The translations under genes were made by a program, and so were the position numbers. Source: Pteria penguin (lineage: Eukaryota; Mollusca; Bivalvia; Pterioida; Pteriidae). From it: a stretch of 64,000 nucleotides of DNA. How positions within the stretch are numbered: the stretch's first letter is position 1; every line of letters starts with the position of its first letter. The notes under the pieces are model-generated. The model was not told the DNA's origin. It saw only the letters and a list, made by a program, of their open reading frames with translations, and did not search any database. Shown here in pieces: positions 6,509 through 63,070 of the stretch. The DNA is taken from assembly GCA_035048485.1 (NCBI GenBank), contig CM068582.1, positions 37,343,596 to 37,407,595 on the forward strand. The letters are read 5' to 3'.

Positions 6509-6842
6509 CAGGAAAATCCACAGATTCTATTTCCCGTTCGCCTTTCACCTTAACTAAAAGTGTTCCAAAAGTACTGTCATTGCTGTCTTGGCAACAAATT
6601 CTGACGTAATATGAGTCTACGACCACTGACCGGAAGTAAGAGTTTTTGGATGTTTCAATGAAAGGTGAGTGCGTGCCGTTGAGCATCATGAGGAAGTTAG
6701 TGGTTGTGGGGTAGGTGCTAGCCAAACTGCAGCACATGTTGTCCCCAGATGGGTCGTACACTTCGATATCAAATATATTTTTACCGTCCTGTGTATCCTC
6801 TCTCAATTCTAATCTTGATGGTAAATTATTAAAACGTGGCGG
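6509..6842 (-). CDS. Exon 25: cadherin-like repeat with extra cysteines; last exon in window
   Basis: 334 nt, phase 0 in and phase 1 out; acceptor TGTTTTAG, donor GTAAGA. Opens with PPRFNNLPSRLELRED, the inter-repeat start of a cadherin domain, followed by IFDIEVYDPSGD. Two CC pairs (NMCCSL and VRICCQD) are not typical of classical cadherins and suggest a disulphide-stabilised variant. The exon ends in phase 1, so more coding sequence must follow, but no next exon is visible down to position 1. Confidence 0.82.
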
Positions 6843-9800
6843 CTAAAACAATACAGAAGTAGGATTTTAACACGAAACATATTTGTTTTTAATTCGGTGA
6901 TATAGTCTTCCAGCAAATAGTAACAGTATAATATAAATATAGTATAATATAAATATAATGTCAATAAAGATCTATCAATCTTTCTAAATATAATACATTG
7001 ATAGAATTTATAGTTAAAAAGTTTTGAAATCCCCCCCACTTACCGATCACAGTACATTCGCACTTTCACTATTTATAATCTAGAAGTACTGTATATCCCT
7101 TACCGATCACAGTATATCTTCAGTATATCTTCACTTTCCCTGTATATAATCTAGACGCTTATGATACTTATTTTGGAATCAGTATCAGAAGCTTTTACTC
7201 TCTTTATGATTAAATATACATGTAATTCAAAATTTAGGAGGATTTTGATGTACGGTACTGAGTAATCACTCAGAACATTCAGAAGCTATGACCTTGAACT
7301 TTGACTGTTTGACGTAAAAAGAAATAGACATCCTCCTCTTTTTATATCTAAATGCACAACCTAACTAAGTTTTAATCTGAAATACGGTTAGTTACTACTT
7401 GAAAACCACTCTTCAAACTTAACCTTTGACATTCAAAAACAATAGATATCTTCATCTTGTTAAAACTAAGTATATATATAAATTAAGTCGAATATGAGAT
7501 ATAGTATTGCGTTGTTATTCACAAATTGATTCGCAAAACACAGATAGAATGGGAACCTTCAGTGCCTTCCGGCAATCTCCAAATCAGAGTTGTCGTTCCT
7601 TTACAATCCACACACGCCTTTGCCCAGGTCTCAGGTTTTACAAGATTCTTGTATGATCAGATTTGGCCTCTAAACGGTATGACTTGGTCTTTAGTGGCTT
7701 TATTAGTTAAGTTTAAAGTATTTATCATGCAAACCATGAATAGAATAGAGGAAATTCTGGCAATTTATGACCAAAACTACGTCCTTAAAGACAAACAAAG
7801 AGAATCTGTTAGAAGGTAAAGGTGATCTTCTTGTAAGTCTCCCTGTCGGCTATGGAAAAAAAACATTATTTTCCATCTACTGCCATTTTGTACGATGCAA
7901 GTCACATGATTTTTTATCATGTGACCAGGGATTACTTTCAGTAGTTGGCAGAGATAAAAGGGAGTGCAAGGACCGTAAATCTGTTTTGGAGATTGTACCG
8001 ATAGGAGACATACAAATAAGTTAACCATTATTAATATATATTGCAATAAAGAATCAATAAAATATCAGTACTACTAATGAAACAAAAGATCCTGTAATAA
8101 ATGTTTGCTTTTCTTACCGCGTTATATGTAGTGATGGTCAGAATAGTGTAAGCGTAGTTCTCACAGCCGTCCACTGCTGTCACGTTATACACGAATTCGC
8201 TTGTCTCGTTAGATTTAGGTAAAGTGTCAAATATTTTGACAGTGCCTGAAATGGAATTTATAGTTTTACACCGAAAGCATCTGTTTCTCCAACAATTGGC
8301 TTAATTATAACCTTTTCAATTCATCATATTCTATATTAACATATGAACAGCAATCTTCAAAACGGTCAGTTTATACAATCCTATGTATTAGGTTGACCAT
8401 GCTATTTAGTTCTGAGTGTATCATCTTCATTTTAAAACAAGCAAAACATTTTTTTCTAATTCCAAATATAGCCACCAATAACTTGATTCCTTTTCCTTTC
8501 TTTGTGAATGTGACGGTGGTACAATGGTAACAGACAATTGAAAATAAAATATTTTGTCTTCCAATTTATGGCAAGGTTACCATGATTTGATCAATCTCGT
8601 AATGTGAATTACATTGGCGGTTTTAGAGAGAGGGGGTGTCAACAATTTTCCAAAAAGCCATTTTCAACCCATTTTTAGGGCTGCAACGCCCTTTCCACAC
8701 CGAATAGTGCAAAACATTAGTTATGGGAGACTGCAACCCCCCTCCCCCTTTCAAAAATTTCTATATCCGCCAATGAAGTATGTCAGGTTAGTAAAAAATG
8801 CATAGAATGATAACCTCTTTATCACTTACTGATGTTAAACGTCGTTGGATAAGAACAAGAAACAAGCTGTATTAGACACAAAGATATAAATTCACAGAAT
8901 TTTAGATTTAACTTATTTACCATCAACATATACATGTATTGGTATATTTCAAATTTCTACATGACAAAAATCGAATGAAAGGTCCTAGATCCCCATTTTA
9001 AGATGTATTTATATTCAAATCTCTCTCCCTTTATGGTTACAATAAAAGTTTTAAAACATTTAAAAATTTACACTTATCTATAATTAATCTTGTACAAGTT
9101 TAAAATAATGATTTAAACTTTTGATTTAGCAATGTATCAATACAACAAAACTGAAAACATACTACAAGTATTTTATCGTTTAAAATCTTACCAAAATAGG
9201 GATCGACGTAGAAATATTGTTTTAATGGAGTATTTCCCATGGGCTCAAAAGTGTACGTTGCTGCTTCTGCATGATCAACACCAGCTGTAGAAAATGTCAT
9301 GACTGAAGCATTACGTTCCAAATGATCAGCGATGGATACGTTATATTCTGATTGTAGAAACTCCATTGGGGTGTCTGTAAAATAAGTAAGAATAATACAG
9401 ATACAGGGATAACTCCATTGGGATGTCTGTAAAATAAGTAAGAATAATACACAGATACAGGGATAACTCCATTGGGGTGTCTGTAAAATAAGTAAGAATA
9501 ATACAGATACAGGGATAACTCCATTGGGATGTCAGTAAAATAAGTAAGAATAATACACAGATACAGGGATAACTCCATTGGGGTGTCTGTAAGATAAGTA
9601 AGAATAGTACAGATGCAGGTATAACTCCATTGGGGTGTCTGTAAAATAAGTAAGAATAATACAGATACAGGGATAACTCCATTGGGGTGTCTGTAAAATA
9701 AGTAAGAATAATGCAGATACAGGGATAACTCCATTGGGATGTCTGTAAAATAAGTAAGAATAATACACAGATACAGGGATAACTCCATTGGGGTGTCTGT

Positions 9801-12800
9801 AAGATAAGTAATAATAGTACAGATGCAGGTATAACTCCATTGGGGTGTCTGTAAAATAAGTAAGAATAATACAGATACAGGGATAACTCCATTGGGGTGT
9901 CTGTAAAATAAGTAAGAATAATGCAGATACAGTGATAACTCCATTGGGGCGTCTGTAAAATAAGTAAGAATAATACAGATACAGGGATAACTCCATTGGG
10001 ATGTCAGTAAAATAAGTAAGAATAATACACAGATACAGGGATAACTCCATTGGGGTGTCTGTAAGATAAGTAAGAATAGTACAGATGCAGGTATAACTCC
10101 ATTGGGGTGTCTGTAAAATAAGTAAGAATAATACAGATACAGGGATAACTCCATTGGGGTGTCTGTAAAATAAGTAAGAATAATACACAGATACAGGGAT
10201 AACTCCATTGGGGTGTCTGTAAAATAAGTAAGAATAATACAGATACAGGGATAACTCCATTGGGATGTCTGTAAAATAAGTAAGAATAATACACAGATAC
10301 AGGGATAACTCCATTGGGGTGTCTGTAAGATAAGTAATAATAGTACAGATGCAGGTATAACTCCATTGGGGTGTCTGTAAAATAAGTAAGAATAATACAG
10401 ATACAGGGATAACTCCATTGGGGTGTCTGTAAAATAAGTAAGAATAATGCAGATACAGTGATAACTCCATTGGGGCGTCTGTAAAATAAGTAAGAATAAT
10501 ACAGATACAGGGATAACTCCATTGGGGCGTCTGTAAAATAAGTAAGAATAATGCAGATACAGTGATAACTCCATTGGGGCGTCTGTAAAATAAGTAAGAA
10601 TAATACAGACACAGGGATAACTCCATTGGGGCGTCTGTAAAATAAGTAAGAATAATACAGATACAGGGATATCTCCATTGGGGCGTCTGTAAAATAAGTA
10701 AGAATAATACAGACACAGGGATAACTCCATTGGGGCGTCTGTAAAATAAATAAGAATAATACAGACACAGGGATAACTCCATTGGGGTGTTTGTAAAATA
10801 AGTAAGAATAATACAGATACAGGGATAACTCCATTGGGGTGTCTGTAAAATAAGTAAGAATAATACAGATACAGTGATAACTCCATTTGGTGTCTGTAAA
10901 ATAAGTAAGAATACTGCAGATACAGGATAACTACATTGGGGTGTTTGTAAAATAAGTAAGAATAATACAGATACAGGGATAACTCCATTGGGTGTCTGTA
11001 AAATAAGTAAGAATAATGCAGATACAGGGATAACTCCATTGGGTGTCTGTAAAATAAGTAAGAATAATACACAGATACAGGGATAACTACATTGGGGTGT
11101 CTGTAAAATAAGTAAGAATAATACAGATACAGGGATAACTCCATTGGGTGTCTGTAAAATAAGTAAGAATAATGCAGATACAGGGATAACTCCATTGGGT
11201 GTCTGTAAAATAAGTAAGAATAATACAGATACAGGGATAACTCCATTGGGTGTCTGTAAAATAAGTAAGAATAATACACAGATACAGGGAAAACTCCATT
11301 GGGTGTCTGTAAAATAAGTAAGAATAATACAGATACAGGGATAACTCCATTGGGGTGTCTGTAAAATAAGTAAGAATAATACAGATACAGGGATAACTCC
11401 ATTGGGGTGTCTGTAAAATAAGTAAGAATAATACAGATACAGGGATAACTCCATTGGGTGTCTGTAAAATAAGTAAGAATAATACAGATACAGGGATAAT
11501 TCCATTGGGTGTTTGTAAAATAAGTAAGAATAATACAGATTCAGGGATAATTCGATTGGGTGTCTGTAAAATAAGTAAGAATAGTACAGATGCAGGGATA
11601 ACTCCATTGGGGTGTCTGTAAAATAAGTAAGAATAATACAGATACAGGGATAACTCCATTGGGGTGTCTGTAAAATAAGTAAGAATAATACAGATACAGG
11701 GATAACTCCATTGGGTGTCTGTAAGATAAGTAAGAATAATACAGATACAAGGATAACTCCATTGGGGTGTCTGTAAAATAAGTAAGAATAATACAGATAC
11801 AGGGATAACTCCATTGGGTGTCTGTAAAATAAGTAAGAATAATACAGATACAGTGATAACTCCATTGGGTGTCTGTAAAATAAGTAAGAATAATGCAGAT
11901 ACAGGGATAACTCCATTGGGTGTCTGTAAAATAAGTAAGAATAATACAGATACAGGGATAATTCCATTGGGTGTTTGTAAAATAAGTAAGAATAATACAG
12001 ATTCAGGGATAATTCCATTGGGTGTCTGTAAAATAAGTAAGAATAGTACAGATGCAGGGATAACTCCATTGGGGTGTCTGTAAAATAAGTAAGAATAATA
12101 CAGATACAGGGATAACTCCATTGGGGTGTCTGTAAAATAAGTAAGAATAATACAGATACAGGGATAACTCCATTGGGTGTCTGTAAGATAAGTAAGAATA
12201 ATACAGATACAAGGATAACTCCATTGGGGTGTCTGTAAAATAAGTAAGAATAATACAGATACAGGGATAACTCCATTGGGTGTCTGTAAAATAAGTAAGA
12301 ATAATACAGATACAGTGATAACTCCATTGGGTGTCTGTAAAATAAGTAAGAATAATGCAGATACATGATCACTCCATTGGGGTGTCTGTAAAATAAGTAA
12401 GAATAATACAGATACAGGGATAACTCCATTGGGGCGTCTGTAAAATAAGTAAGAATAATACAGATACAGGTTAACTCCATTGGGGTGTCTGTAAAATAAG
12501 TAAGAATAATACAGATACAGGGATAACTCCATTGGGTGTCTGTGAAATAAATAAGAATAATACAGATACAGGTTAACTCCATTGGGGTGTCTGTAAAAAA
12601 GTAAGAATAATACAGATACAGGGATAACTCCATTGGGTGTCTGTAAAATAAGTAAAAATAATAAAGATACAGGGATAACTCCATTGGGGTGTCTGTAAAA
12701 TAAGTAAGAATAATACAGATACATGGATAACTCCATTGGGGTGTCTGTAAAATAAGTAAGAATAATACAGACACAGGGATAACTCCATTGGGGTGTCTGT

Positions 12801-15800
12801 AAGATAAGTAAGAATAATACAGATACAGGGATAACTCCATTGGGTGTCTGTAAGATAAGTAAGAATAATACAAATACAGGGAAAATTCTATTTGGATGTC
12901 AGTAATATAAGTAAGAATAATACAGATATAGGGATAACTCCATTGGGTGTCTGTAAGATAAGTAAGAATAATACAAATACAGGGAAAATTCTATTTGGAT
13001 GTCTGTAATATAAGTAAGAATAATACAGGTACAGGGATAACTCCATTGGGGTCTTTGTCAAATTAAGAATAATACATACACGAGTATAACACCATTGGGG
13101 TGTCAGTAAAATTAGTAAGAATAATACAGACACAAGGATAACTCCATTGGGATGTCTGTAAAATAAGTAAGAATAATACAGATGCAGGGATAGCTCTATT
13201 GGGGTGTCTGTAATACAAGTAAGAATAATACAGACGCAGGAAGAGGTCCATTGGAGTGTCTATAACATGAGTAAAAATAATACAAATACAAGGAAAACTG
13301 TATTTGGGTGTCTATAAAAGAAGTAAGAATAATACAGACACGAGTATAACTCCATTGGGGTGTCTGTAAAATAAGTAAGAATAATACACAGATACAGGGA
13401 TAACTCCATTGGGGTGTCTGTAAAATAAGTAAGAATAATACAGATACAGGGATAACTCCATTGGGATGTCTGTAAAATAAGTAAGAATAATACACAGATA
13501 CAGGGATAACTCCATTGGGGTGTCTGTAAGATAAGTAATAATAGTACAGATGCAGGTATAACTCCATTGGGGTGTCTGTAAAATAAGTAAGAATAATACA
13601 GATACAGGGATAACTCCATTGGGGTGTCTGTAAAATAAGTAAGAATAATGCAGATACAGTGATAACTTCATTGGGGCGTCTGTAAAATAAGTAAGAATAA
13701 TACAGATACAGGGATAACTCCATTGGGGCGTCTGTAAAATAAGTAAGAATAATGCAGATACAGTGATAACTCCATTGGGGCGTCTGTAAAATAAGTAAGA
13801 ATAATACAGACACAGGGATAACTCCATTGGGGCGTCTGTAAAATAAGTAAGAATAATACAGATACAGGGATATCTCCATTGGGGCGTCTGTAAAATAAGT
13901 AAGAATAATACAGACACAGGGATAACTCCATTGGGGCGTCTGTAAAATAAGTAAGAATAATACAGACACAGGGATAACTCCATTGGGGCGTCTGTAAGAT
14001 AAGTAAGAATAATACAGATACAGGGATAACTCCATTGGGTGTCTGTAAGATAAGTAAGAATAATACAAATACAGGGAAAATTCTATTTGGATGTCAGTAA
14101 TATAAGTAAGAATAATACAGATATAGGGATAACTCCATTGGGTGTCTGTAAGATAAGTAAGAATAATACAAATACAGGGAAAATTCTATTTGGATGTCTG
14201 TAATATAAGTAAGAATAATACAGGTACAGGGATAACTCCATTGGGGTCTTTGTCAAATTAAGAATAATACATACACGAGTATAACACCATTGGGGTGTCA
14301 GTAAAATTAGTAAGAATAATACAGACACAAGGATAACTCCATTGGGATGTCTGTAAAATAAGTAAGAATAATACAGATGCAGGGATAGCTCTATTGGGGT
14401 GTCTGTAATACAAGTAAGAATAATACAGACGCAGGAAGAGGTCCATTGGAGTGTCTATAACATGAGTAAAAATAATACAAATACAAGGAAAACTGTATTT
14501 GGGTGTCTATAAAAGAAGTAAGAATAATACAGACACGAGTATAACTCCATTGGGGTGTCTGTAAAATAAGTAAGAATAATACACAGATACAGGGATAACT
14601 CCATTGGGGTGTCTGTAAAATAAGTAAGAATAATACAGATACAGGGATAACTCCATTGGGATGTCTGTAAAATAAGTAAGAATAATACACAGATACAGGG
14701 ATAACTCCATTGGGGTGTCTGTAAGATAAGTAATAATAGTACAGATGCAGGTATAACTCCATTGGGGTGTCTGTAAAATAAGTAAGAATAATACAGATAC
14801 AGGGATAACTCCATTGGGGTGTCTGTAAAATAAGTAAGAATAATGCAGATACAGTGATAACTTCATTGGGGCGTCTGTAAAATAAGTAAGAATAATACAG
14901 ATACAGGGATAACTCCATTGGGGCGTCTGTAAAATAAGTAAGAATAATGCAGATACAGTGATAACTCCATTGGGGCGTCTGTAAAATAAGTAAGAATAAT
15001 ACAGACACAGGGATAACTCCATTGGGGCGTCTGTAAAATAAGTAAGAATAATACAGATACAGGGATATCTCCATTGGGGCGTCTGTAAAATAAGTAAGAA
15101 TAATACAGACACAGGGATAACTCCATTGGGGCGTCTGTAAAATAAGTAAGAATAATACAGACACAGGGATAACTCCATTGGGGCGTCTGTAAAATAAGTA
15201 AGAATAATACAGACACAGGGATAACTCCATTGGGGTGTTTGTAAAATAAGTAAGAATAATACAGATACAGGGATAACTCCATTGGGGTGTCTGTAAAATA
15301 AGTAAGAATAATACAGATACAGTGATAACTCCATTGGGTGTCTGTAAAATAAGTAAGAATACTGCAGATACAGGATAACTACATTGGGGTGTCTGTAAAA
15401 TAAGTAAGAATAATACAGATACAGGGATAACTCCATTGGGTGTCTGTAAAATAAGTAAGAATAATGCAGATACAGGGATAACTCCATTGGGTGTCTGTAA
15501 AATAAGTAAGAATAATGCAGATACAGGGATAACTCCATTGGGTGTCTGTAAAATAAGTAAGAATAATACAGATACAGGGATAACTCCATTGGGTGTCTGT
15601 AAAATAAGTAAGAATAATACACAGATACAGGGATAACTCCATTGGGTGTCTGTAAAATAAGTAAGAATAATACAGATACAGGGATAACTCCATTGGGGTG
15701 TCTGTAAAATAAGTAAGAATAATACAGATACAGGGATAACTCCATTGGGGTGTCTGTTAAATAAGTAAGAATAATACAGATACAGGGATAACTCCATTGG

Positions 15801-18800
15801 GTGTCTGTAAAATAAGTAAGAATAATACAGATTCAGGGATAATTCCATTGGGTGTCTGTAAAATAAGTAAGAATAGTACAGATGCAGGGATAACTCCATT
15901 GGGGTGTCTGTAAAATAAGTAAGAATAATACAGATACAGGGATAACTCCATTGGGGTGTCTGTAACATAAGTAAGAATAATACAGATACAGTGATAACTC
16001 CATTGGGTGTCTGTAAAATAAGTAAGAATACTGCAGATACAGGATAACTACATTGGGGTGTCTGTAAAATAAGTAAGAATAATACAGATACAGGGATAAC
16101 TCCATTGGGTGTCTGTAAAATAAGTAAGAATAATGCAGATACAGGGATAACTCCATTGGGTGTCTGTAAAATAAGTAAGAATAATGCAGATACAGGGATA
16201 ACTCCATTGGGTGTCTGTAAAATAAGTAAGAATAATACACAGATACAGGGATAACTCCATTGGGTGTCTGTAAAATAAGTAAGAATAATACACAGATACA
16301 GGGATAACTCCATTGGGGTGTCTGTAAAATAAGTAAGAATAATACAGATACAGGGATAACTCCATTGGGGTGTCTGTAAAATAAGTAAGAATAATACAGA
16401 TACAGGGATCACTCCATTGGGGTGTCTGTTAAATAAGTAAGAATAATACAGATACAGGGATAACTCCATTGGGTGTCTGTAAAATAAGTAAGAATAATAC
16501 AGATTCAGGGATAATTCCATTGGGTGTCTGTAAAATAAGTAAGAATAGTACAGATGCAGGGATAACTCCATTGGGGTGTCTGTAAAATAAGTAAGAATAA
16601 TACAGATACAGGGATAACTCCATTGGGGTGTCTGTAAAATAAGTAAGAATAATACAGATACAGGGATAATTCCATTGGGTGTCTGTAAGATAAGTAAGAA
16701 TAATACAGATACAAGGATAACTCCATTGGGGTGTCTGTAAAATAAGTAAGAATAATACAGATACAGGGATAACTCCATTGGGTGTCTGTAAAATAAGTAA
16801 GAATAATACAGATACAGTGATAACTCCATTGGGTGTCTGTAAAATAAGTAAGAATAATGCAGATACAGGGATAACTCCATTGGGTGTCTGTAAAATAAGT
16901 AAGAATAATACAGATACAGGGATAATTCCATTGGGTGTTTGTAAAATAAGTAAGAATAATACAGATTCAGGGATAATTCCATTGGGTGTCTGTAAAATAA
17001 GTAAGAATAGTACAGATGCAGGGATAACTCCATTGGGGTGTCTGTAAAATAAGTAAGAATAATACAGATACAGGGATAACTCCATTGGGGTGTCTGTAAA
17101 ATAAGTAAGAATAATACAGATACAGGGATAACTCCATTGGGTGTCTGTAAGATAAGTAAGAATAATACAGATACAAGGATAACTCCATTGGGGTGTCTGT
17201 AAAATAAGTAAGAATAATACAGATACAGGGATAACTCCATTGGGTGTCTGTAAAATAAGTAAGAATAATACAGATACAGTGATAACTCCATTGGGTGTCT
17301 GTAAAATAAGTAAGAATAATGCAGATACATGATCACTCCATTGGGGTGTCTGTAAAATAAGTAAGAATAATACAGATACAGGGATAACTCCATTGGGGCG
17401 TCTGTAAAATAAGTAAGAATAATACAGATACAGGTTAACTCCATTGGGGTGTCTGTAAAATAAGTAAGAATAATACAGATACAGGGATAACTCCATTGGG
17501 TGTCTGTGAAATAAATAAGAATAATACAGATACAGGTTAACTCCATTGGGGTGTCTGTAAAAAAGTAAGAATAATACACATACAGGGATAACTCCATTGG
17601 GTGTCTGTAAAATAAGTAAAAATAATAAAGATACAGGGATAACTCCATTGGGGCGTCTGTAAAATAAGTAAGAATAATACAGACACAGGGATAACTCCAT
17701 TGGGGTGTTTGTAAAATAAGTAAGAATAATACAGATACAGGGATAACTCCATTGGGGTGTCTGTAAAATAAGTAAGAATAATACAGATACAGTGATAACT
17801 CCATTGGGTGTCTGTAAAATAAGTAAGAATACTGCAGATACAGGATAACTACATTGGGGTGTCTGTAAAATAAGTAAGAATAATACAGATACAGGGATAA
17901 CTCCATTGGGTGTCTGTAAAATAAGTAAGAATAATGCAGATACAGGGATAACTCCATTGGGTGTCTGTAAAATAAGTAAGAATAATGCAGATACAGGGAT
18001 AACTCCATTGGGTGTCTGTAAAATAAGTAAGAATAATACAGATACAGGGAGAACTCCATTGGGTGTCTGTAAAATAAGTAAGAATAATACACAGATACAG
18101 GGATAACTCCATTGGGTGTCTGTAAAATAAGTAAGAATAATACAGATACAGGGATAACTCCATTGGGGTGTCTGTAAAATAAGTAAGAATAATACAGATA
18201 CAGGGATAACTCCATTGGGGTGTCTGTTAAATAAGTAAGAATAATACAGATACAGGGATAACTCCATTGGGTGTCTGTAAAATAAGTAAGAATAATACAG
18301 ATTCAGGGATAATTCCATTGGGTGTCTGTAAAATAAGTAAGAATAGTACAGATGCAGGGATAACTCCATTGGGGTGTCTGTAAAATAAGTAAGAATAATA
18401 CAGATACAGGGATAACTCCATTGGGGTGTCTGTAAAATAAGTAAGAATAATACAGATACAGGGATAACTCCATTGGGTGTCTGTAAGATAAGTAAGAATA
18501 ATACAGATAGAAGGATAACTCCATTGGGGTGTCTGTAAAATAAGTAAGAATAATACAGATACAGGGATAACTCCATTGGGTGTCTGTAAAATAAGTAAGA
18601 ATAATACAGATACAGTGATAACTCCATTGGGTGTCTGTAAAATAAGTAAGAATAATGCAGATACAGGGATAACTCCATTGGGTGTCTGTAAAATAAGTAA
18701 GAATAATACAGATACAGGGATAATTCCATTGGGTGTTTGTAAAATAAGTAAGAATAATACAGATTCAGGGATAATTCCATTGGGTGTCTGTAAAATAAGT

Positions 18801-21800
18801 AAGAATAGTACAGATGCAGGGATAACTCCATTGGGGTGTCTGTAAAATAAGTAAGAATAATACAGATACAGGGATAACTCCATTGGGGTGTCTGTAAAAT
18901 AAGTAAGAATAATACAGATACAGGGATAACTCCATTGGGTGTCTGTAAGATAAGTAAGAATAATACAGATACAAGGATAACTCCATTGGGGTGTCTGTAA
19001 AATAAGTAAGAATAATACAGATACAGGGATAACTCCATTGGGTGTCTGTAAAATAAGTAAGAATAATACAGATACAGTGATAACTCCATTGGGTGTCTGT
19101 AAAATAAGTAAGAATAATGCAGATACATGATCACTCCATTGGGGTGTCTGTAAAATAAGTAAGAATAATACAGATACAGGGATAACTCCATTGGGGCGTC
19201 TGTAAAATAAGTAAGAATAATACAGATACAGGTTAACTCCATTGGGGTGTCTGTAAAATAAGTAAGAATAATACAGATACAGGGATAACTCCATTGGGTG
19301 TCTGTGAAATAAATAAGAATAATACAGATACAGGTTAACTCCATTGGGGTGTCTGTAAAAAAGTAAGAATAATACACATACAGGGATAACTCCATTGGGT
19401 GTCTGTAAAATAAGTAAAAATAATAAAGATACAGGGATAACTCCATTGGGGCGTCTGTAAAATAAGTAAGAATAATACAGACACAGGGATAACTCCATTG
19501 GGGTGTTTGTAAAATAAGTAAGAATAATACAGATACAGGGATAACTCCATTGGGGTGTCTGTAAAATAAGTAAGAATAATACAGATACAGTGATAACTCC
19601 ATTGGGTGTCTGTAAAATAAGTAAGAATACTGCAGATACAGGATAACTACATTGGGGTGTCTGTAAAATAAGTAAGAATAATACAGATACAGGGATAACT
19701 CCATTGGGTGTCTGTAAAATAAGTAAGAATAATGCAGATACAGGGATAACTCCATTGGGTGTCTGTAAAATAAGTAAGAATAATGCAGATACAGGGATAA
19801 CTCCATTGGGTGTCTGTAAAATAAGTAAGAATAATACAGATACAGGGATAACTCCATTGGGTGTCTGTAAAATAAGTAAGAATAATACACAGATACAGGG
19901 ATAACTCCATTGGGTGTCTGTAAAATAAGTAAGAATAATACAGATACAGGGATAATTCCATTGGGGTGTCTGTAAAATAAGTAAGAATAATACAGATACA
20001 GGGATAACTCCATTGGGGTGTCTGTTAAATAAGTAAGAATAATACAGATACAGGGATAACTCCATTGGGTGTCTGTAAAATAAGTAAGAATAATACAGAT
20101 TCAGGGATAATTCCATTGGGTGTCTGTAAAATAAGTAAGAATAGTACAGATGCAGGGATAACTCCATTGGGGTGTCTGTAAAATAAGTAAGAATAATACA
20201 GATACAGGGATAACTCCATTGGGGTGTCTGTAAAATAAGTAAGAATAATACAGATACAGGGATAACTCCATTGGGTGTCTGTAAGATAAGTAAGAATAAT
20301 ACAGATAGAAGGATAACTCCATTGGGGTGTCTGTAAAATAAGTAAGAATAATACAGATACAGGGATAACTCCATTGGGTGTCTGTAAAATAAGTAAGAAT
20401 AATACAGATACAGTGATAACTCCATTGGGTGTCTGTAAAATAAGTAAGAATAATGCAGATACAGGGATAACTCCATTGGGTGTCTGTAAAATAAGTAAGA
20501 ATAATACAGATACAGGGATAATTCCATTGGGTGTTTGTAAAATAAGTAAGAATAATACAGATTCAGGGATAATTCCATTGGGTGTCTGTAAAATAAGTAA
20601 GAATAGTACAGATGCAGGGATAACTCCATTGGGGTGTCTGTAAAATAAGTAAGAATAATACAGATACAGGGATAACTCCATTGGGGTGTCTGTAAAATAA
20701 GTAAGAATAATACAGATACAGGGATAACTCCATTGGGTGTCTGTAAGATAAGTAAGAATAATACAGATACAAGGATAACTCCATTGGGGTGTCTGTAAAA
20801 TAAGTAAGAATAATACAGATACAGGGATAACTCCATTGGGTGTCTGTAAAATAAGTAAGAATAATACAGATACAGTGATAACTCCATTGGGTGTCTGTAA
20901 AATAAGTAAGAATAATGCAGATACATGATCACTCCATTGGGTGTCTGTAAAATAAGTAAGAATAATACAGATACAGGGATAACTCCATTGGGGCGTCTGT
21001 AAAATAAGTAAGAATAATACAGATACAGGTTAACTCCATTGGGGTGTCTGTAAAATAAGTAAGAATAATACAGATACAGGGATAACTCCATTGGGTGTCT
21101 GTGAAATAAATAAGAATAATACAGATACAGGTTAACTCCATTGGGGTGTCTGTAAAAAAGTAAGAATAATACACATACAGGGATAACTCCATTGGGTGTC
21201 TGTAAAATAAGTAAAAATAATAAAGATACAGGGATAACTCCATTGGGGTGTCTGTAAAATAAGTAAGAATAATACAGATACATGGATAACTCCATTGGGG
21301 TGTCTGTAAAATAAGTAAGAATAATGCAGACACAGGGATAACTCCATTGGGTGTCTGTAAGATAAGTAAGAATAATACAGATACAGGGATAACTCCATTG
21401 GGTGTCTGTAAGATAAGTAAGAATAATACAAATACAGGGAAAATTCTATTTGGATGTCAGTAATATAAGTAAGAATAATACAGATATAGGGATAACTCCA
21501 TTGGGTGTCTGTAAGATAAGTAAGAATAATACAAATACAGGGAAAATTCTATTTGGATGTCTGTAATATAAGTAAGAATAATACAGGTACAGGGATAACT
21601 CCATTGGGGTCTTTGTCAAATTAAGAATAATACAGACACGAGTATAACTCCATTGGGGTGTCAGTAAAATTAGTAAGAATAATACAGACACAGGGATAAC
21701 TCCATTGGGATGTCTGTAAAATAAGTAAGAATAATACAGATGCAGGGATAGCTCTATTGGGGTGTCTGTAATACAAGTAAGAATAATACAGACGCAGGAA

Positions 21801-24800
21801 GAGGTCCATTGGAGTGTCTATAACATGAGTAAAAATAATACAAATACAAGGAAAACTGTATTTGGGTGTCTATAAAATAAGTAAGAATAATACAGACACG
21901 AGTATAACTCCATTGGGGTGTCTGTAAAATTAGTAAGAATAATACAGATACAGGGATAACTCCATTGGGGCGTCTGTAAAATAAGTAAGAATAATACAGA
22001 TACAGGGATAACTCCATTGGGGTGTCTGTAAAATGAGTAAGAATAATACAGATACAGGGATAACTCCATTGGGGTGTCTGTAAAGTAAGCAAGAATAATA
22101 ACTCCATTCGGGTGCCTATACAATAAGTAAGAGTTATACAGACACAGAGATAACTCCTTTGAAGTGTCTGTAAAATAAGTAAGAATAATACAGATTATAA
22201 AGGGACAACAGTATTTGGATGTCTGAAAATCTAGTATAATTTAGTTACAGGGATAGCTATATGTGGGTGCCTGTAAAATAAGTAAGAACAAGCTGTGTTT
22301 GTGAAACACTAATGTCCCGGCGGCACCAAACTCCAAAAAGTTATTTTTAGCGTGAATGTCAATGTCAAAAGATCATCGACCTTGGTGTCATTGGAAAGGG
22401 CTTCATTAGTTGAGTATGCATGTCAAATATGAAGTCTCTATCCATCACGGTTCAAAAGTTATAGCCAATGTTAATGTTCAGATACAGATACAGGGATAAC
22501 AGTATGTGGGTGACTGTAAAATAAGTATAATACAGGAACAGGGATATAGTATGTGGGTGTCTGTAAAATAAGTATAATACAGATACAGGAATAACAGTAT
22601 GTGGGTGACTGTAAACTATGTATAATACAGATACAGGGATAACAGTATGTGGGTGTCTGTAAAATAAGTATAATACAGATACAGGGATAACAGTATGTGG
22701 GTGTCTGTAAAATAAGTATAATACAGATACAGGGATAACAGTATGTGGGTGACTGTAAAATAAGTATAATACAGATACAGGGATAACAGTATGTGGGCGT
22801 CTGTAAAATAAGTATAATACAGATACAGGGATAACAGTATGTGGGTGACTGTAAAATAAGTATAATACAGATACAGGGATAACAGTATGTGGGTGTCTGT
22901 AAAATAAGTATAATACAGATACAGGGATAACAGTATGTGGGTGACTGTAAAATAAGTATAATACAGATACAGGGATAACAGTATGTGGGTGTCTGTAAAA
23001 TAAGTATGATACAGATACAGGGATAACAGTATGTGGGCGTCTGTAAAATAAGTATAATACAGATACAGGGATAACAGTATGTGGGTGTCTGTAAAATAAG
23101 TATAATACAGATACAGGGATAATAGTATGTGGGTGTCTGTAAAATAAGTATGATACAGATACAGGGATAACAGTATGTGGGCGTCTGTAAAATAAGTATA
23201 ATACAGATACAGGGATAACAGTATGTGGGTGTCTGTAAAATAAGTATGATACAGATACAGGGATAACAGCATGTGGGTGACTGTAAAATAAGTATAATAC
23301 AGATACAAGGATAACAGTATGTGGGTGACTGTAAAATAAGTATAATACAGATACAGGGATAACAGTATGTGGGCGTCTGTAAAATAAGTATAATACAGAT
23401 ACAGGGATAACAGTATGTGGGTGACTGTAAAATAAGTATGATACAGATACAGGGATAACAGTATGTGGGTGACTGTAAAATAAGTATAATACAGATACAG
23501 GGATAACAGTATGTGGGTGACTGTAAAATAAGTATAATACAGATACAGGGATAACAGTATGTGGGTGTCTGTAAAATAAGTATTATACAGATACAGGGAT
23601 AACAGTATGTGGGTGACTGTAAAATAAGTATTATACAGGTACAGGGATAACAGTATGTGGGTGACTGTAAAATAAGTATAATACAAATACAGGGATAACA
23701 GTGTGTGGGTGACTGTAAAATAAGTATTATACAGGTACAGGGATAACAGTATGTGGGTGACTGTAAAATAAGTATAATACAGATACAGGGATTTAGAAAT
23801 GAATCGGACATCTGAGGTCGTGATGCAGTTATAGATAGAAAAAATTGGACGCAAATTTGCATCATTTCCCGTAAGATGCATTTATTATCATTAAGCTAGA
23901 GTTTTAGTAGAGGCAGAAAACATACGATATGCCAGGTTTCAGCTAAAAAAAATGCATATTTCTTCTCGTATCTTAAAGCTAATAGTTAATATAAATGGGA
24001 TTTGATTACGTATATAGTAATATGTCCACTTTATCTTTAATTAAATGTTAAATGTTCTTTTTGTTTAGGGCAATTAATGACGGCTCTTTAATTGTCCAGC
24101 AATAAATATCAAAATAACTCTACAAATCTCATCACATTAAATGAATAAGAACATTACTAGGTACACCCGGAGATGTGTTATCTTGACATCGTGAACACTT
24201 AATAATGTTTTTTGCGTTGTTTATAAATATACATTATGTCTATAATGAATTTTATATGAGGAATCTGTACACTGAACAGCTTCCATACCTATGGTACCCG
24301 CAATCGATACGGAAATGGAAAAACCAGAGGTAGGACTATGTGTTAAGAAGGTAATAAATACATAATGCAATGTCCCTTAATTCAATCAATAATGACAAAG
24401 ACAAAATTTAGTGAATAAATCTAACACATACTTCTCGTAAAATAGTACTTGATAGCATAACTGCGGTTTGCCAAAACTGTAGCATCGTTATCCCAATTGG
24501 CTGTTATATAATTCTTTAATATCTTAGGACCATCCAAGTGTAACGTTGATTGGGGACAGAGCGTATCCTTGGTGGGGTCGCACTCCTCATATGATATCAT
24601 AGACCCTGAGTAACTGAACCTGAAATAAAACAATACAATATACTGAGCAAAAGTTAGAAGCAGTCCAACTCTGATGTGACCTGCATTTTTCACCTTATAG
24701 TAAAACTGCTGCATTGTTTCACATATTTCTGAATATTTCCCCTCGGTAAGGTGCTTGGTTCATGACGGGGAGGTCCTGGGTTCAAGTCATTTCCCTCGGT

Positions 24801-27800
24801 AAGGTGCTTGGTTCATGACGGGGAGGTCCTGGGTTCAAGTCATTTCCCTCGGTAAGGTGCTTGTTTCGTGACGGGTGGCCCTGGGTTCAAGTCATTTCCC
24901 TCGGTAAGGTGCTTGGTTCTGACTGGGAGGTCCTGGGTTCAAGTCATTTCCCTCGGTAAGGTGCTTGGTTCATGACGGGGAGGTCCTGAGTTCAAGTCAT
25001 TTCCCTCGGAAGGTGCTTGTTTCGCTTGTTTCGTGACGGGGAGGTCTTTGGTTCAAGTCATTTTCCTCGGTAAAGTGCTTGGTGCATGACGGGGAAATCT
25101 TGGGTTCAAGTCCTTTCCCTCGGTAAGGTGCTTGGTTCATGACGGGGAAATCTTGGGTTCAAGTCATTTCCCTAGGTAAGGTGCTTAGTTCAAGACGGGG
25201 AGGTCCTTGGTTCAAGTCATTTTTCTCGGTAAGGTGCCTGGTTCATGAGGGGGAGGTCCAGGGTTCATGAGGGGGAGGTCCTGGGTTCAAGTCCCGCCGG
25301 TGTTTCGTCGGAAGACACAGTAAAAACCAAGGTTCCGTGTCAAGGTAGGCACTATACACCACTCACTACTTCGGGTGGGTTGTATGTAAAAGTCTAGACC
25401 TCTGCTCATTACATCAGGCCGTCACCATGTGAATGCAATAATCGTGGTGGGAGGTAAATCGATTGTCAATCAAACAAAATAGAAAACCATACCATGGTTA
25501 TTCATTTAGTGAACAATATAACCAGTTCAGTGGTTTTGAATTGAACACGGAGCTGTATTACGTGATGTCTTTATGATTGAGTCATTTGTTTCTCCGGAGT
25601 TAGAAATACAAATGTAAAGTTATGAATACAAGCTATATACCATTATTATGATGTATACATTATGGAAGACACAAGATAATAAAGTAGTTTTTCTCCATTG
25701 AACTATTATACATGTATACACTACATGTACTACTTAAACTTTTAATATTACATACCATCCTATCATATCGAATGCCTTCACTGCTATCTTCTCGTCCGTT
25801 ATGGTCACGTTCAAGACTTGTGCGGTGTCTAAAGGACAGTGCAAATTTCATTACAAAGTGAGAGTTACCATGTATGACTGTAGGAAATATTAAAGTAATT
25901 CACTGAATGATAAATGATCAGGTTTACTGTACTTATTTACTTTTGAACAGATGATGATATGATGTTTATCGTTATATCTACATAAAGTTAATGTTACTGT
26001 TTGAAAATTGATGACAAAATGACAAATAACAAAATAAATATTAAAGATTGTCATACTGTGAACCACATATTTTGCGTAGCTTTATTTTCGCTAGTATCTT
26101 ACTCAGGATAAATATGTGAGAAGTCATAGACATGTTACATTCATTGATAAAATCGAGGGTAGCGAGCACTTTATTGATCAAATCTAGGGTAGTGAGGACT
26201 TTATTGATCAAATCTAGGGTAGTGAGGACTTATTGATCAAATCGAGGGTAGCAAGGACTTTGTTGATCAAATCCAGAGTCTATGACGGGCCTTGTTCAAA
26301 CGTTTTCAGAGGAGACAGGCCCTGATCCTCGTCCCCTCTGACTGTTAGTCGGGTCTCCTACTGATCAAGGATCTGAGCGATGTCGCCTTACATATTTTTG
26401 ATCGCAACATATTATTCTATAAACTTTTTGTGTGTGATAAAATTTTTATGACCTCGCTTCTTGAGAAACCTGTTGATCCTAGGCTTGTTCTCTATATGGA
26501 GGATTATTTATAAATTTTCAAATGTGTGTCCTTTGATTGTGCTGCTATTGTGGTGAGTGGGAAGGTGGGCGCCCGTAAACCGGTTAACCACACCAATTGA
26601 ACAACGTTTGTTACTTCAATTGACCGTCCTAAGTCGGTATCGTAACCACAGCACAATCGAATATTTTTGTCATGTCATTTTTTCTGTGTATATTCTACTA
26701 TTATCATTTTTGTGAGCATGTCCTTGGTGATTTTTGTCATACAGCTTTGTCAGATATCTTCAGTTTTCTCTTTTATTGATAAATCGAGGGTAGCAAGGAC
26801 TTTATTGATCAAATCGAGGGTAGCAAGGACTTTGCTGATTAAATCCAGAGTCTATGACGGGCCTTGTTCGAACCTTTTCAGAGGAGACAGGTCCTGATCC
26901 TCGTCCCCTCTGACTGTTAGTCGGGACTCCTATTGATCAAGGATCTGAGCAATGTCGCCTTACATATTTTTGATCGTAACATATTATTCTATAAACTTTT
27001 CGTGTGTGATAAAATTTTTATGACCTCGCTTCTTGAGAAAACTGTTGAGCCTCGTTCTCTATATGGAGGATTATTTATAAATTTTCAAATGTGTGTCCTT
27101 TGATTGTGCTGCTATTGTGGTGAGTGGGAAGGTGGGCGCCCGTAAACCGGTTAACCACACCAATTGAACGACGTTTGTTACTTCAATTGACCGTCCTAAG
27201 TCGGTATCGTAACCACAGCACAATCGAATATTTTTGTCATGTCATTTTATCTGTGTATATTCTACTATTATCATTTTTGTGAGCATTTCCTTGGTGATTT
27301 TTGTCATACAGCTTTGTCAGATATCTTCAGTTTTCTCTTTTATTGATAAATCGAGGGTAGCAAGGACTTTATTGATCCAATCGAGGGTAGCGAGGACTTT
27401 ATTCATCAAATTCAGGGTAGCAAAAACTTTATTGATCAAATCTAGGACAGGGAAGACTTTATTGATCAAATCTTGGGTAGCGAGGACTTTACTCTTTTTA
27501 TCAAATCCAAAGTATCGAGGACTTTACGGATAAAATCCACAGTAGCGAGGACTTAATTGATCATATCAAGGGGAGCGAGGACCTTACTTATCAAATCCAG
27601 GGTAGCGAGGACTTTATTGGTCAAATCCAGGGTAGCAAGGACTTTATTGATCAAATCCAGGGTAGCGAGGACTTTACTGATCAAATCCAGGGTAGCGAGC
27701 ACTTTATTGATCATATCAAGGGTAGCGAGGACTTTATTTTTGCATGGAGTCATAGTTGTGAATTTACGCGAAAACAATGTTCTCGCTAGTTAACAGTAAT

Positions 27801-35284: not shown

Positions 35285-38200
35285 TGTGTGTGTGTGTTTC
35301 AACAATCATATCATTTCACAATTTTATAAGAATTTTATAAGCCATTTTTTTTAAGTTTTCCTGATTTCTTGAAAAAAAAAATTAGTAATACTGGAGATCA
35401 GAAATTTATGAACAACTACATGTTGTATGCGTTACTACAATTTTAGGATGATAAGTTAGTCAAACTCTAACAGATTTATGTAACAATATAGTAACTTTTG
35501 CATGTGCACAATACAGTGGTGTATAAAATCGAGGGTAGCGAGGACTTTATTGATTAAATCTAGGGTAGTGAGGACTTATTGATCAAATCAAGGGTAGCAA
35601 GGACTTTGTTGACCACATCTAGAGTCTATTACGAGCCTTGTTCAAACCTTTTTAGGGGAGACATGGTCCCGATCCTCGTCCCTTCTGACTGTTAGTCGGG
35701 ACTCCTATTGATCAAGGATCTTAGCTCGCTTACAGATGGGCAGAGCACGGTTTACTCATGTTAATGTCGCCTTACATATTTTGATAGCAACATACATGTA
35801 TTATTCTAGAGATGTTTCGTGTGTAATTTAATCTTTATGACCTTTCTTGTTGATCCTCGTTCTCTATATGGAGGACTATTTATAAATGTTTTTAAAAATG
35901 TGTGTCCTTTGATTGTGCTACTTTTGTGTTGAGCGGGAATGTGGGCGCCCGTAAACCGGATAACCACACCAATTGAGTGACGTTTGTTACTTCAATTGAC
36001 CGTCCTACGTCGGTATGGTAACCGCACACAATCGAATATTTTTGTAATGTCGTTTTGCCGTGTATCTTCTACTATTATCATGTTTTGTGTGCATGTCCTT
36101 GGTGATTTGTGTCATACAGCTTTGTCAAACGTCTTCTGTTTTCTCTTGTAAAATGGGCACAAAAAGATGATTGTGTTTAAACCATGCAATGTTACGAAAC
36201 GAGAATTAATTATGAACGGATGGGAAATTTAACATCAAACTAAAATTGGTAAGTATTCATTATAAGTATTGAAAGTTTTACAGAATTTGCCTGAATATAA
36301 ACATCATTTCCACTAAATCATAGTACATTGCGAATCAAGAAGTCTTTGACGGGATAGAGGAGGCGGTATTGATATAGATATTTGTTATCTACTAAATCTG
36401 TCCTATCTTAGAATATCTTTGATTACTGAATAAATAACTTAGTTTGGGTGACCAATTATGTATGTAATTGCGTGGGGAAGAAGGGTCCTACCTAAGAGAT
36501 TCAACACAAGATCATATTTTCTACTTGTCAAATTCAAATAAATACATAGAAATGAAGTTCATATTAAAATTTATGATCAAATCAAATACTATTCCTGATT
36601 TTCAATTAGATCATAATATTCAATGAAACGTTCGTAAAACACAGAAATTGTTCCCACATTACGCTCATATGTCATTGTTACCATCTCAGTAGATTTGGGT
36701 TTTATTTCAATACCGTTAGTGAGGATGACGATCGTGCCCCTTATCGACAAAGGGCAGATAATTACTGAGAACCTGCTGCTAGGAAGGTGCTATGTGTATA
36801 CGTACCATAAATCTGGCAAGCGAATGTAGTGGCTGACCACGCCTCCGTCACTAAACATGTGATGGTGCTTGGCGTACCTATACTGTAGTAACCAATATTA
36901 CAGCTGTATGTGCGAGTGGTGTCGTAAGTTGTAGCTCCAGAAGACAGAGCACCATTGGTAACCGACGGCGGCGTATAACAATCTGAAATACCAATCACAA
37001 TAATGGGGTTTTTTTTAAATATTTCATATTGATGTGTTGCATTAGTTTTTTTAAACGGTTATTTTATTTTTGCAATCGGCCTCGGCCGATTGTATATTGC
37101 GATAGTAAATTCGTTTTGAGAGCGCATGTGCAAACTCCATTAGCGTGGCATGTTGGGTAATAATCTAGTACTAAGAAACAGTATTAACACATAATTCTGC
37201 CGTAGATATTGAGATTTCTAGAAACGAATCTTATAAAATGTTCATAATTTAAAAAAAAAAAGATTTGCTCACTACAAAAACCAACTTATTTCCGAATATT
37301 GACGAGAACATCCGAGAGACTTTCCTAAAAAGAAAAAAGGCGCGGCTAGTTTCCTAATAAGGAAAAAAATGAGGCGTGCCTTTAGAAATTTTAGCGGGAA
37401 AATTCACAACTGCTCATAAAAAGATGGTTTTAAAATCAAGTACATGTAATTCCTATTTACATAAAGCCATTTGGCTTTTTGACCAACAACTTGAAGATTT
37501 AAAGCTATTCCGATTGCAACCTAACTTTAAAAAAAAAAAAAAAGCTACGCTTGTTAGATCAACACAAAAATTTTGCGATATCTTCTACAAAACAAATGTG
37601 TTTTATTCGAAAATTCTTCATTTGCTGCTGCAATCAAATATTAATATGACAATGCCATTCTTCCTTATGTATAATTAAACAGCTTATTCCTTCTGTGGAT
37701 ATTGCAAAATATACCATAATGTAATAAGCATAATTCGTATTTATAATTAGATTCAAGAGATTATATTAATGATTTCAATGATTATGTACAATGCAAATAA
37801 TGGAAGAGATGGTACAAGTTTTGCTCCTACTTCGGCCTATTTTCAGTAGCACGTGTTTAACAAGAGCTGTTATTTAGTGTCCCAGTTTTACAATAGAAGA
37901 GGAGCTTTAAATATCAAACAAGATATTATCTGTTCTTGTTCTTCACAGGCCAGTCATGACAATGTCCTAAATATAATGTAAAGGCAATAAGAACGGATTC
38001 TTACTGCTAAGCTAATCACGTAGACTTCATGTGAAGTGTTGACTGTGTAGGAAATCACAATAGCCTTAAACATGGTCTTGCAGAAACGATTTAGATTCCA
38101 GTCATCATAAAAGGGCTCTACAAAGCAAACCAATACATAATCAAGAGACCTAAATAGGCCTATACCCCTCAACTCGGCACAATTTGCTCATTCCTAATCG

Positions 38201-41200: not shown

Positions 41201-44200
41201 TTTAAGAGAGTTCACCACGCCATAAATACTTTGTCTACATTTCTTTGTGTCGCTTTTAACTAACAAAATCTAATGTTTCCTTTCATCGGAATTCATTAAT
41301 ACTCGTAACTGCTCGTCAAACACGTGTTCTAGTCATTACACACGTGACAGATGACTAACTTCATAACCACTGGATTATTTTAAACGATGTAACTTAGCTC
41401 TACATAAAGTAGATTTTTCGTTTAGCTTGAGTCTCAATTGTCCTGTTTTTAGAAAAAGTCAAACAAATTTTTCAGGAAGAGTAACTGGGTAACAGAAGAG
41501 GCGTCAAATTTATAACCTTATTTGTAGTGCATACAAGAATATATATTCAGAATGAAAATGACAGAAGAATCATTAATTTCGAAAATAAGAAAAACCCTTC
41601 ATAGACGAAACAAACGTACCACATTATATATATGTTTCTTCAGATTTTTTCTGTTTCAAAGAAACAAAGAAAAAGAAATTGAAATATTCTTTCGTTATGA
41701 TCAACTCATGCATATATTTCTGAGTTTTTATTAAAATTTATATATTCGAAAAACGAGACTCCACCCATGAGCCCCAAAATCAGGGACCAGACTCTCACTT
41801 TATAGCTATCGTGGACAACTTCAAGCCATGTTCTACATGTATTATGTTCCACCATCAGATTCATAATAAGCCTCACATAGTATAAATGTCTTCTTACCCA
41901 TGATAGTACAGGTATATGACGGTGTCACCCATTCGGCGCTTTGCTGACAGGTGATCGTAGCCGTTCCGGAATTCCAATATCCAGTATTACAGGAATAGGT
42001 TGCGGTAGCCGTGTATGTTGTTATTGGTGCCGATACAGAGGCATGAGATACCGAAGGTGGGGTACCACAATCTAATGTAAATATAAAAAGCTTACTACAA
42101 CATTGTCAATGATACATTTGAGTTCTTACTTTGTGCCGTGAGTGTTCTAAACTAGCTTAAAGCAAATTTCTAAGTAAATGTTTTAAGACATTATGTACAA
42201 GTAGACAATCTCCATGACATCATAAAAAATGAAAGTATCCGCACATTTTTTTTCAACAAAATCAATAAATGAGTAGATAAATAAATAAATGAACGAACGA
42301 ATAAATAAATAAATGAACAAACAGATAACAGACAGCTTCACATATCTGTTGATGTAGAGTGCCAAAACAACCCTCATCGAATACCGAGCATGTTTTGTAT
42401 AACACTTACCCACCAAGTACGTGATGGTCGCCGAATTTGATGCGTAGCCTGCGAAGAGAATGTAATTCCTGGAATAAGAGCTATGGCTGTACGATATAAA
42501 CTCCGTCCGGACATTATTTTTTATTCGTCCTGTTCTTATTGTAGAGGAATCCCACGAGATATAAAATCTTTTTTTCATTGTATAGTCCACTGTGACGCCA
42601 CTTTCTGTATAGGTAACCAAATTGGACCCAGATTGTGTCAGGCGGAAGTGCGTTTGTGATTGGTAATACCATAAGAAGATAAAGACATACATATTTGTTG
42701 TCGCACCATCGGAAGGGGAAATCGCAACATGGGCATCTAAGCCCTGAAGATCAAACACGATTTCCGTTCTGTCAAAGCCTGTTACGCCGTATGTAGATGC
42801 TTTAAGGTATGTATTTCCTGTCTGAGAAACCGCCGTGTCTTGAGCTGCAACAAATATGCTTTGGTATTTACAAAGATCACATCAATTTCTTCCGAATTTG
42901 TCTAAAATATTAAAATGTGACCTATTGAAAGGTATTTTGAGATAAATTTGAACGTTTTAAAAGTACACATACCCCTCTCTTTTTTACTTTGGACAATAGG
43001 CATGATACATTGTTAATATAGGTCATATGGATATCTTATTATTTTAATCTATTTTTCTAAAAATAAATTGAATGATTATAATGTTATAAGCAGACATTTC
43101 CGAACCCTCCTCCTCCCCGCTTCCTTGTTTTTGAAGTTGGTGATTTTAAACAAAGCACCATAATATATACTCCAAGTCATGTGACTTTTACATCCTTCAG
43201 CAGATCTTGTAATTAGAAAAGTATAAGCCGCCTTAGTTGTTGCTTAATTCAGAATCATACATATACCACAGGAACTTCAGTGATGCCGATGAATATTGTT
43301 GAAATTATTATTACCGTAGTAGCATGAGAAAGTTGATGATGCCCACGACCCACTGCTCGCACACGTTCGAGAAGGGTTAGACGTGCCTAAATAGCCGGTG
43401 TTACAGGAATAAGTTGCTGTACTAAGGTAGGTGGTGGTGGATGCCGAGACCTGCCCATTAGACACCCCTGGAGGTGTCCCACAATCTAGGTAATGTAAAC
43501 GAAATTGGCCGAGTATTAATATTGAGATAATGATGACGTGAGAAGATGATACGATAATTGTTAGCTAGTACTGTTTCATCATTACTTTTTCATCGATAGC
43601 CCAATCTTTGCACTACATGTGAGATATACGTGATACGTGAGTAGTGTTTAGCATTTATCAATATGAATTCTACACCCATAACCTACATCAGCATGCGAAA
43701 TAATAAGGAATCCACCAAAAAAAAAAAAAATAAATAAATAAAAAGGAAATAGACGAGTATTACATATATGAAGTATAATATTTTCTGTATTGTTAAGACG
43801 TGAAAATATTGTCGTCTATTTCACTTGATAAAGACCGAGCGGGTGAAAATTCGCGAAGAAGCTATGGTGTTATTTATTTATTTATTTATTTATCTATTTA
43901 TTTTTTTAATCTTTTGATTTATTTTCTGATTTGATTTCAATACTTTCCTTTGGAAGACAGATTTTTATTGAGATGATATTTTTTCACAAGCATTTAAAGA
44001 TAGAATTTCTCCCATAATCTATCTTTTCCAGTACATGCATGATAATAGTGTGTCACGAGCAGTATTGATAGACATAAATTATAAATTCATAACATATAAT
44101 TATACCTAGAAACAGAACATATTTATATACCGATTATCGGTTACAGACCAAGTGGAATAGCAATGATTCATCAATATTGATCAATAATGCAAACTTGCTA

Positions 44201-62780: not shown

Positions 62781-63070
62781 GCCCCCAGAATCAAAGATTC
62801 GGGGGAATCTAGTTTTTGGCCTGTCCATCTGTCTGTCTGTCTGTTTGCTGCAGAAAACTAACATTGGTTATAACTTTTGAATCGTAAGAGATAGGGCTTT
62901 TATATTTTACATGCCTATTCCTTGTGACAAGACCTTTCCGTCAGCACAAAAATATTTTACTCAGTGACCTTGACTGACCTTTGACCTACATTTCTAAAAC
63001 TTAAACAATGGTAATAACATTCTAATCATAAGAGGTAGGGCTTTCATATTTTACATATGTACAGTTCGCA
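62781..63070 (+). repeat. Dispersed repeat C, second copy
   Basis: Starts with the hairpin CCCCCAGAATCAAAGATTCGG, then TCTGTCTGTCTGTCTG and CGTAAGAGATAGGGCTTT duplicated once. Common style of repeat in molluscs; no coding content. Confidence 0.7.

Follow-up and report, generated by a model that had tools for sequence, protein, structure and literature searches.

How does a cell find the right 3' splice site when hundreds of near-identical copies of that site precede it in the same intron? The question is raised by a minisatellite in the 64,000-nucleotide stretch of DNA analysed here (the window), whose units appear to be near-identical splice sites, in the hundreds, from which the true one would have to be chosen. 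Such an array allows 3' splice-site choice to be studied as a natural experiment: its acceptors hardly differ in sequence, which leaves position as the main variable, and each wrong choice is identifiable by its length and frame. A spliceosome working on a 'first come, first served' basis would take a distal unit, since transcription reaches the upstream AGs ahead of the true one, by as much as 14 kb, whereas exon definition would lead to the last. The explanation that we favor, and hold to be quite probable, is that the array was seeded at the junction, grew by recombination, is neutral, and is tolerated with the last acceptor in use.

Structure of the Array

Tandem Repeats Finder reported a single array at 9359-23792 with a 52-bp unit, 282 copies and 90% matches. 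It occupies 14.4 kb within a 15.06-kb intron, and its last 16 bases are exon. Wrap-around alignment resolved two blocks, A and B, which flank an insert and together contain 277 complete units (Table 1). A preliminary description of about 245 copies over 12.8 kb (9363..22260) had located the array but understated its size: the repeats resume past 22260 beyond the 192-bp insert, and block B had been missed. By blastn, the insert resembles five further pieces of the window (E <= 0.003, 73-89% identity).

In the consensus, the modal A unit of 52 bp comprises 36 nt of intron end followed by 16 nt of exon start; 132 of the 250 A units are 52 bp long and 81 are 51 bp long. The last unit of the array is the real junction. 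The acceptor AG is retained in 256 of the 277 units (229/250 in block A and 27/27 in block B); 85 of the 250 A units carry the 16 coding bases unchanged, while 76 more lack just one C. Exact matches on the gene (minus) strand numbered 203 for TTATTTTACAG, 85 for ACACCCCAATGGAGTT, 113 for CTGTATCTGTATTATTC, 62 for a 27-nt string of acceptor plus exon and 46 for the whole 52-mer; outside the array, none of these five strings was found on either strand of the window. Unit alignment and string counts thus bear out the earlier proposal of an array of junction units, each made of the acceptor and the exon start, although the statement that both parts recur in every unit was too strong. When the 36 modelled junctions (both ends of 18 exons) were compared with the window by blastn, only this acceptor proved to be multiplied, with 276 matches at E <= 0.001, itself included, against one each for the other 35.

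Table 1. Positions in the window of the array, its parts and the surrounding exons (a slash marks a splice junction).
Feature	Position	Strand	Details
Preceding exon	24432..24619	-	ends ...SYAIKYYFTR + first base of N; phase 1; donor CGAGAA/gtatgt
Host intron	9375..24431	-	15,057 nt, ~96% array
Block B	22482..23792	-	27 complete 48-bp units + one partial, diverged
Insert between blocks	22290..22481	.	~192 bp, dispersed repeat; blastn
Insert-related pieces	593-501, 507-456, 62853-62939, 51527-51563, 51279-51320		blastn
Block A	9359..22289	-	250 complete junction-type units + one partial; wrap-around alignment
Higher-order blocks, three copies of 35 units, 1.8 kb	15588..20980	-	pairs 99.8%, 98.2%, 98.2% identical
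Higher-order blocks, two copies of 23 units, 1195 bp	12313..14702	-	97% identical
TGA stop	9532..9534	-	in unit with ACTG for ACAG; crosses every in-frame upstream path
True acceptor	9375..9410	-	36-nt intron end = intronic part of last unit
True exon, 183 nt	9192..9374	-	phase-1 entry A/AC = N, after TTATTTTACAG; donor ATTTTG/gtaaga
Next exon	8118..8245	-	GTVKIFDTLP...TYNA
Following exon	6509..6842	-	begins PPRFNNLP

Host Gene and Identity of the Acceptor

The host gene lies on the minus strand and is built largely of Sushi (CCP) exons, which give way to a stretch that is conserved in Pinctada and then to cadherin-like repeats. All nine predicted exons between 30472 and 6509 merge into a single open reading frame, and a longer chain of 17 exons gives 974 residues without a stop. 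Pfam recognized Sushi domains along the chain, with eight stretches in its first eight Sushi exons and two in its last nine exons. A cadherin domain was absent from the Pfam matches at E <= 1; the cadherin-like reading comes from weak sequence matches in the PDB to CDH23 (E 0.0015) and to protocadherin gamma-B3 (E 0.0016), the latter pairing NTPMEFLQSEYNVSIADHL with DNPPVFTQDMYRVNVAENL, and from a match to CELSR1 whose E value of 2.8e-5 is summed over several weak stretches.

A protein search with residues 620-974 of the chain as query returned two Pinctada imbricata proteins, computer-predicted paralogs from one species, each with 56% identity over the full query. A profile search yielded no further homologs, and a third search returned only the same two Pinctada proteins. 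The exon downstream of the array encodes NTPMEFLQSEYNVSIADH..., and the exonic part of the unit is its first 16 nt. Across the junction, which splits the codon of the N in NTPMEF, the window reads NRSYAIKYYFTR-NTPMEF and the Pinctada proteins read NRSYAIKYYFTR-NTPLQF and NRSYAIKYYFTR-NTPMQF. The frame of the nine exons stays open through the acceptor TTTTACAG/ACACC. Because the nine-exon chain is continuous in frame and the same residues occur in both Pinctada proteins, this acceptor, judged from the sequence, is a real coding edge, as the preliminary description had called it. An internal acceptor after TACAATCAG, named there as the case that would overturn the call, is in frame by inspection but replaces NTPMEFLQSE with a single K; it was rejected because the N, T, P and F lost in this way are identical in the three aligned proteins.

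Elsewhere in the window, a segment at 42186-42881 (minus) resembles the Pfam family Methyltransf_FA (PF12248; E 8.2e-5, 22.8 bits, below the cut-off of 24.2), and the Pinctada homolog P0001 carries a Methyltransf_FA domain annotation.

Consequences for Acceptor Choice

At the true acceptor, 36 nt are free of AG, which lies within the range of the other 17 modelled sites (9 to >58 nt), and the pyrimidine content of 0.76 is among the higher values of the modelled acceptors (0.53-0.88). The consensus unit would function as a self-contained acceptor, and most copies may be complete acceptors because it has its own pyrimidine-rich tract and AG. Among the 256 AG-bearing acceptors, however, only that at 9374 yields an open in-frame exon. 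The 255 upstream AGs, if joined to the exon at 24432, all lead to a premature stop in the exon: 178 shift the frame, and 77 are in frame yet meet a stop. These 77 in-frame paths share one TGA, which has a chance probability of about 0.40, so the stops cannot be taken as evidence of selection or design, and selection for premature stops was discarded as unsupported.

Selection on the AG was rejected as well. AG sites differ from the consensus in 6.7% of the distinct unit rows, compared with 6.9% over all 52 sites; the AG thus changes as fast as the average site of the unit and is neither kept nor purged. The consensus unit is free of stops in all frames (shuffle probability 0.018 for dinucleotides, 0.025 for mononucleotides). 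This observation was set aside and nothing was drawn from it, because block A has 74 stop triplets on the coding strand in all frames together.

Three roles had been suggested for the array. A useful alternative 5' extension of the exon is not supported, as premature stops would follow from 255/255 of the other AG units, and a decoy array has no support either, the AG being neither preserved nor lost faster than other sites. Toleration appears to fit best. Splicing to an upstream AG would create a premature stop and probably lead to mRNA decay, so we regard the array as tolerated and not as used. Under exon definition the spliceosome would take the last acceptor, the only one to be followed by a short exon (183 nt) that has a good donor, and the rest would be neutral baggage.

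An alternative is that the units serve as alternative acceptors that are used, or that the array is a length-dependent brake, in which a share of upstream splicing feeds nonsense-mediated decay and tunes expression. Retention of the AG in 256/277 complete units, an intact acceptor part in block B and the premature stops expected from 255 of 256 AG units are in line with this idea, but the stops are explained by frame and by that one TGA, and the AG decays like the average site; we consider it unlikely. A brake that varies with array length, each upstream acceptor diverting a minor fraction of splicing into mRNA that bears a stop and decays, seems very unlikely; if true, the output of the gene would be set between individuals by the length of the array, which would change in steps of 23-35 units.

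Growth of the Array

Units within the array carry the same label as those 35 positions away in 30% of cases, whereas in 200 shuffles the best of 149 lags reached <=12%, and higher-order blocks of 35 and 23 units are present (Table 1). Mean identity to the true junction, taken over ten A units at a time, was 0.948-0.977 for 21 of the 25 blocks; lower means were found for the other four, at 13038-13507 (0.900), 14078-14542 (0.873), 21287-21749 (0.921) and the distal edge. The distal ten units are diverged (0.862), compared with 0.973 for the exon-proximal ten. The pattern suggests that blocks were duplicated recently by unequal exchange and that the distal edge is older. According to the favored explanation, the minisatellite would have grown by unequal exchange or slippage, lately in 23- and 35-unit blocks, to about 277 copies. 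Block duplications at 97-99.8% identity in one assembly suggest that array length may have changed recently.

Repeat blocks that are 1.8 kb long and 99.8% identical are difficult to assemble, and part of the large copy number could reflect a misassembled repeat. Against such an artifact, which we judge to be improbable, stand the 21 mismatches and 9-10 gap openings that set the third block copy apart and the position of the array inside a 76.7-Mb contig. The length of the array could still be off.

Origin of the Repeat Unit

The seed of the array would have been a short tandem duplication over the 3' splice site, covering 36 intronic and the first 16 coding bases. The exon bases of the unit are conserved coding sequence in Pinctada, which agrees with the seeding by junction duplication put forward in the preliminary description. 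As these bases encode residues common to clearly diverged homologs, they appear to predate the array, and the duplicated junction is most likely its source. A single-copy intron end resembling ATCCCTGTATCTGTATTATTCTTACTTATTTTACAG in a paralog or ortholog would represent the ancestor.

The consensus sequences of blocks A and B are identical at 32/32 aligned intronic bases apart from a 4-nt deletion in B, which was placed for best fit. The B consensus matches the exon bases at 10/16 positions; because 10/16 or better is expected by chance with a probability of about 0.005, the exonic part of B still seems to be related to the exon. The two consensus sequences thus differ at 6/16 exonic vs 0/32 aligned intronic positions (Fisher p 6.5e-4), an asymmetry that simple drift does not predict and that we count against the favored explanation. 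Variation within block A is similar at intronic and at exonic positions (permutation p 0.70). The exon parts of distal A units are intermediate between A and B (e.g., ACACCCAAATACAGTT), and in a star-like tree of distinct units, which is unrooted and has little support from 52 bp, B attaches via distal A units.

That the array came first, transposon-borne or as an ordinary intronic satellite, and that the unit at its end came to serve as acceptor and exon edge, appears highly improbable: block B does have an acceptor without exact exon bases and many other minisatellites lie within the window, but the 16 exon bases encode residues common to the two Pinctada proteins, the 210 kb of flanking sequence searched (10 kb to one side and 200 kb to the other, the window serving as positive control) held neither coding nor unit matches, and in a DNA search of the same genome with two unit copies all 26 matches listed, block A not being among them, lay inside block B of this array. 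That search covered 838 Mb in 49 contigs, skipped very common words and scored one of two first-look candidates. Exact unit strings had 0 matches in the viral and prokaryote collections, which speaks weakly for an animal origin of the sequence.

Comparison With Known Boundary Arrays

In amphioxus, tandem duplications at intron-exon boundaries are described as 'mirages', with cases in the globins BflGb6 and BflGb9 and in Adh3, TnC and PGBD5, and they reportedly leave splicing undisturbed (PMC3087553, PMC3902484). The array described here has the structural features of a mirage: its tandem units combine intronic with exonic sequence from a single boundary, and many of them keep the splice-signal AG. 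As far as those accounts describe them, the amphioxus mirages share with it a unit that covers intron end and exon start, many units with splice signals and, perhaps, concerted evolution, and BflGb6 is likewise a case at a 3' boundary. The sizes differ. BflGb6 is reported to have units of 150-160 bp, 6 in one haplotype and 3 in another (PMC3087553, PMC3902484), and Adh3 with units of 10-72 bp (PMC117041, as cited), compared with about 277 units of about 52 bp here. The edges may differ as well: units at the cluster boundary of BflGb6 are reported to escape homogenization (PMC3087553, PMC3902484), whereas the exon-proximal edge of the present array is as uniform as its middle. The host, to judge from its Pinctada homologs, is probably a pteriomorph bivalve and not amphioxus.

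Internal tandem repeats at exon-intron boundaries are also described for human segmental duplications, where boundary repeats account for 27 intron modifications in duplicated genes; the units average 30 bp x 4, the repeats are supported by transcripts, and new introns and alternative forms are reported (PMC2812944). These, too, are minisatellites at exon-intron boundaries, but, as reported, they differ from the present array in their small size, about 30-bp units x 4, and in their transcript support. The minisatellite of IFI6 (6-16) is said to be a small array. It supplies several splice donors, two downstream units being reported as used (Turri 1995, via PMC4526556); its units thus carry a splice site as described, as they do here, but a donor and not an acceptor.

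The preliminary description had called the array unusual. In kind, going by these reports, it was already known (amphioxus, PMC3087553, PMC3902484; human, PMC2812944), while its scale is unusually large. Among the titles and abstract openings covered by the literature searches, no splice-junction minisatellite of a mollusc was found. What is new is the scale and, probably, the phylum. The array also suggests that mirage-type arrays arise in another phylum besides that of amphioxus and can reach hundreds of copies.

Other Repeats in the Window

Rfam matches were limited to two tRNA-like ones, both distant from the array, at 286-358 and 57008-57079 (minus; 36 and 29.5 bits). The reading frames around the two are alike by eye, perhaps reflecting a tRNA-derived SINE. 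The next intron upstream of the array holds a 53-bp, 10-copy minisatellite (24735-25267) that touches no modelled exon; its unit contains GGTTCAAGTC, which resembles a tRNA-type B box. Four arrays of similar 30-bp units are found at 26143-26273, 26772-26845, 27339-27738 and 35526-35622, and a longer duplicated block is visible by eye near 26.3-26.8 and 26.8-27.3 kb.
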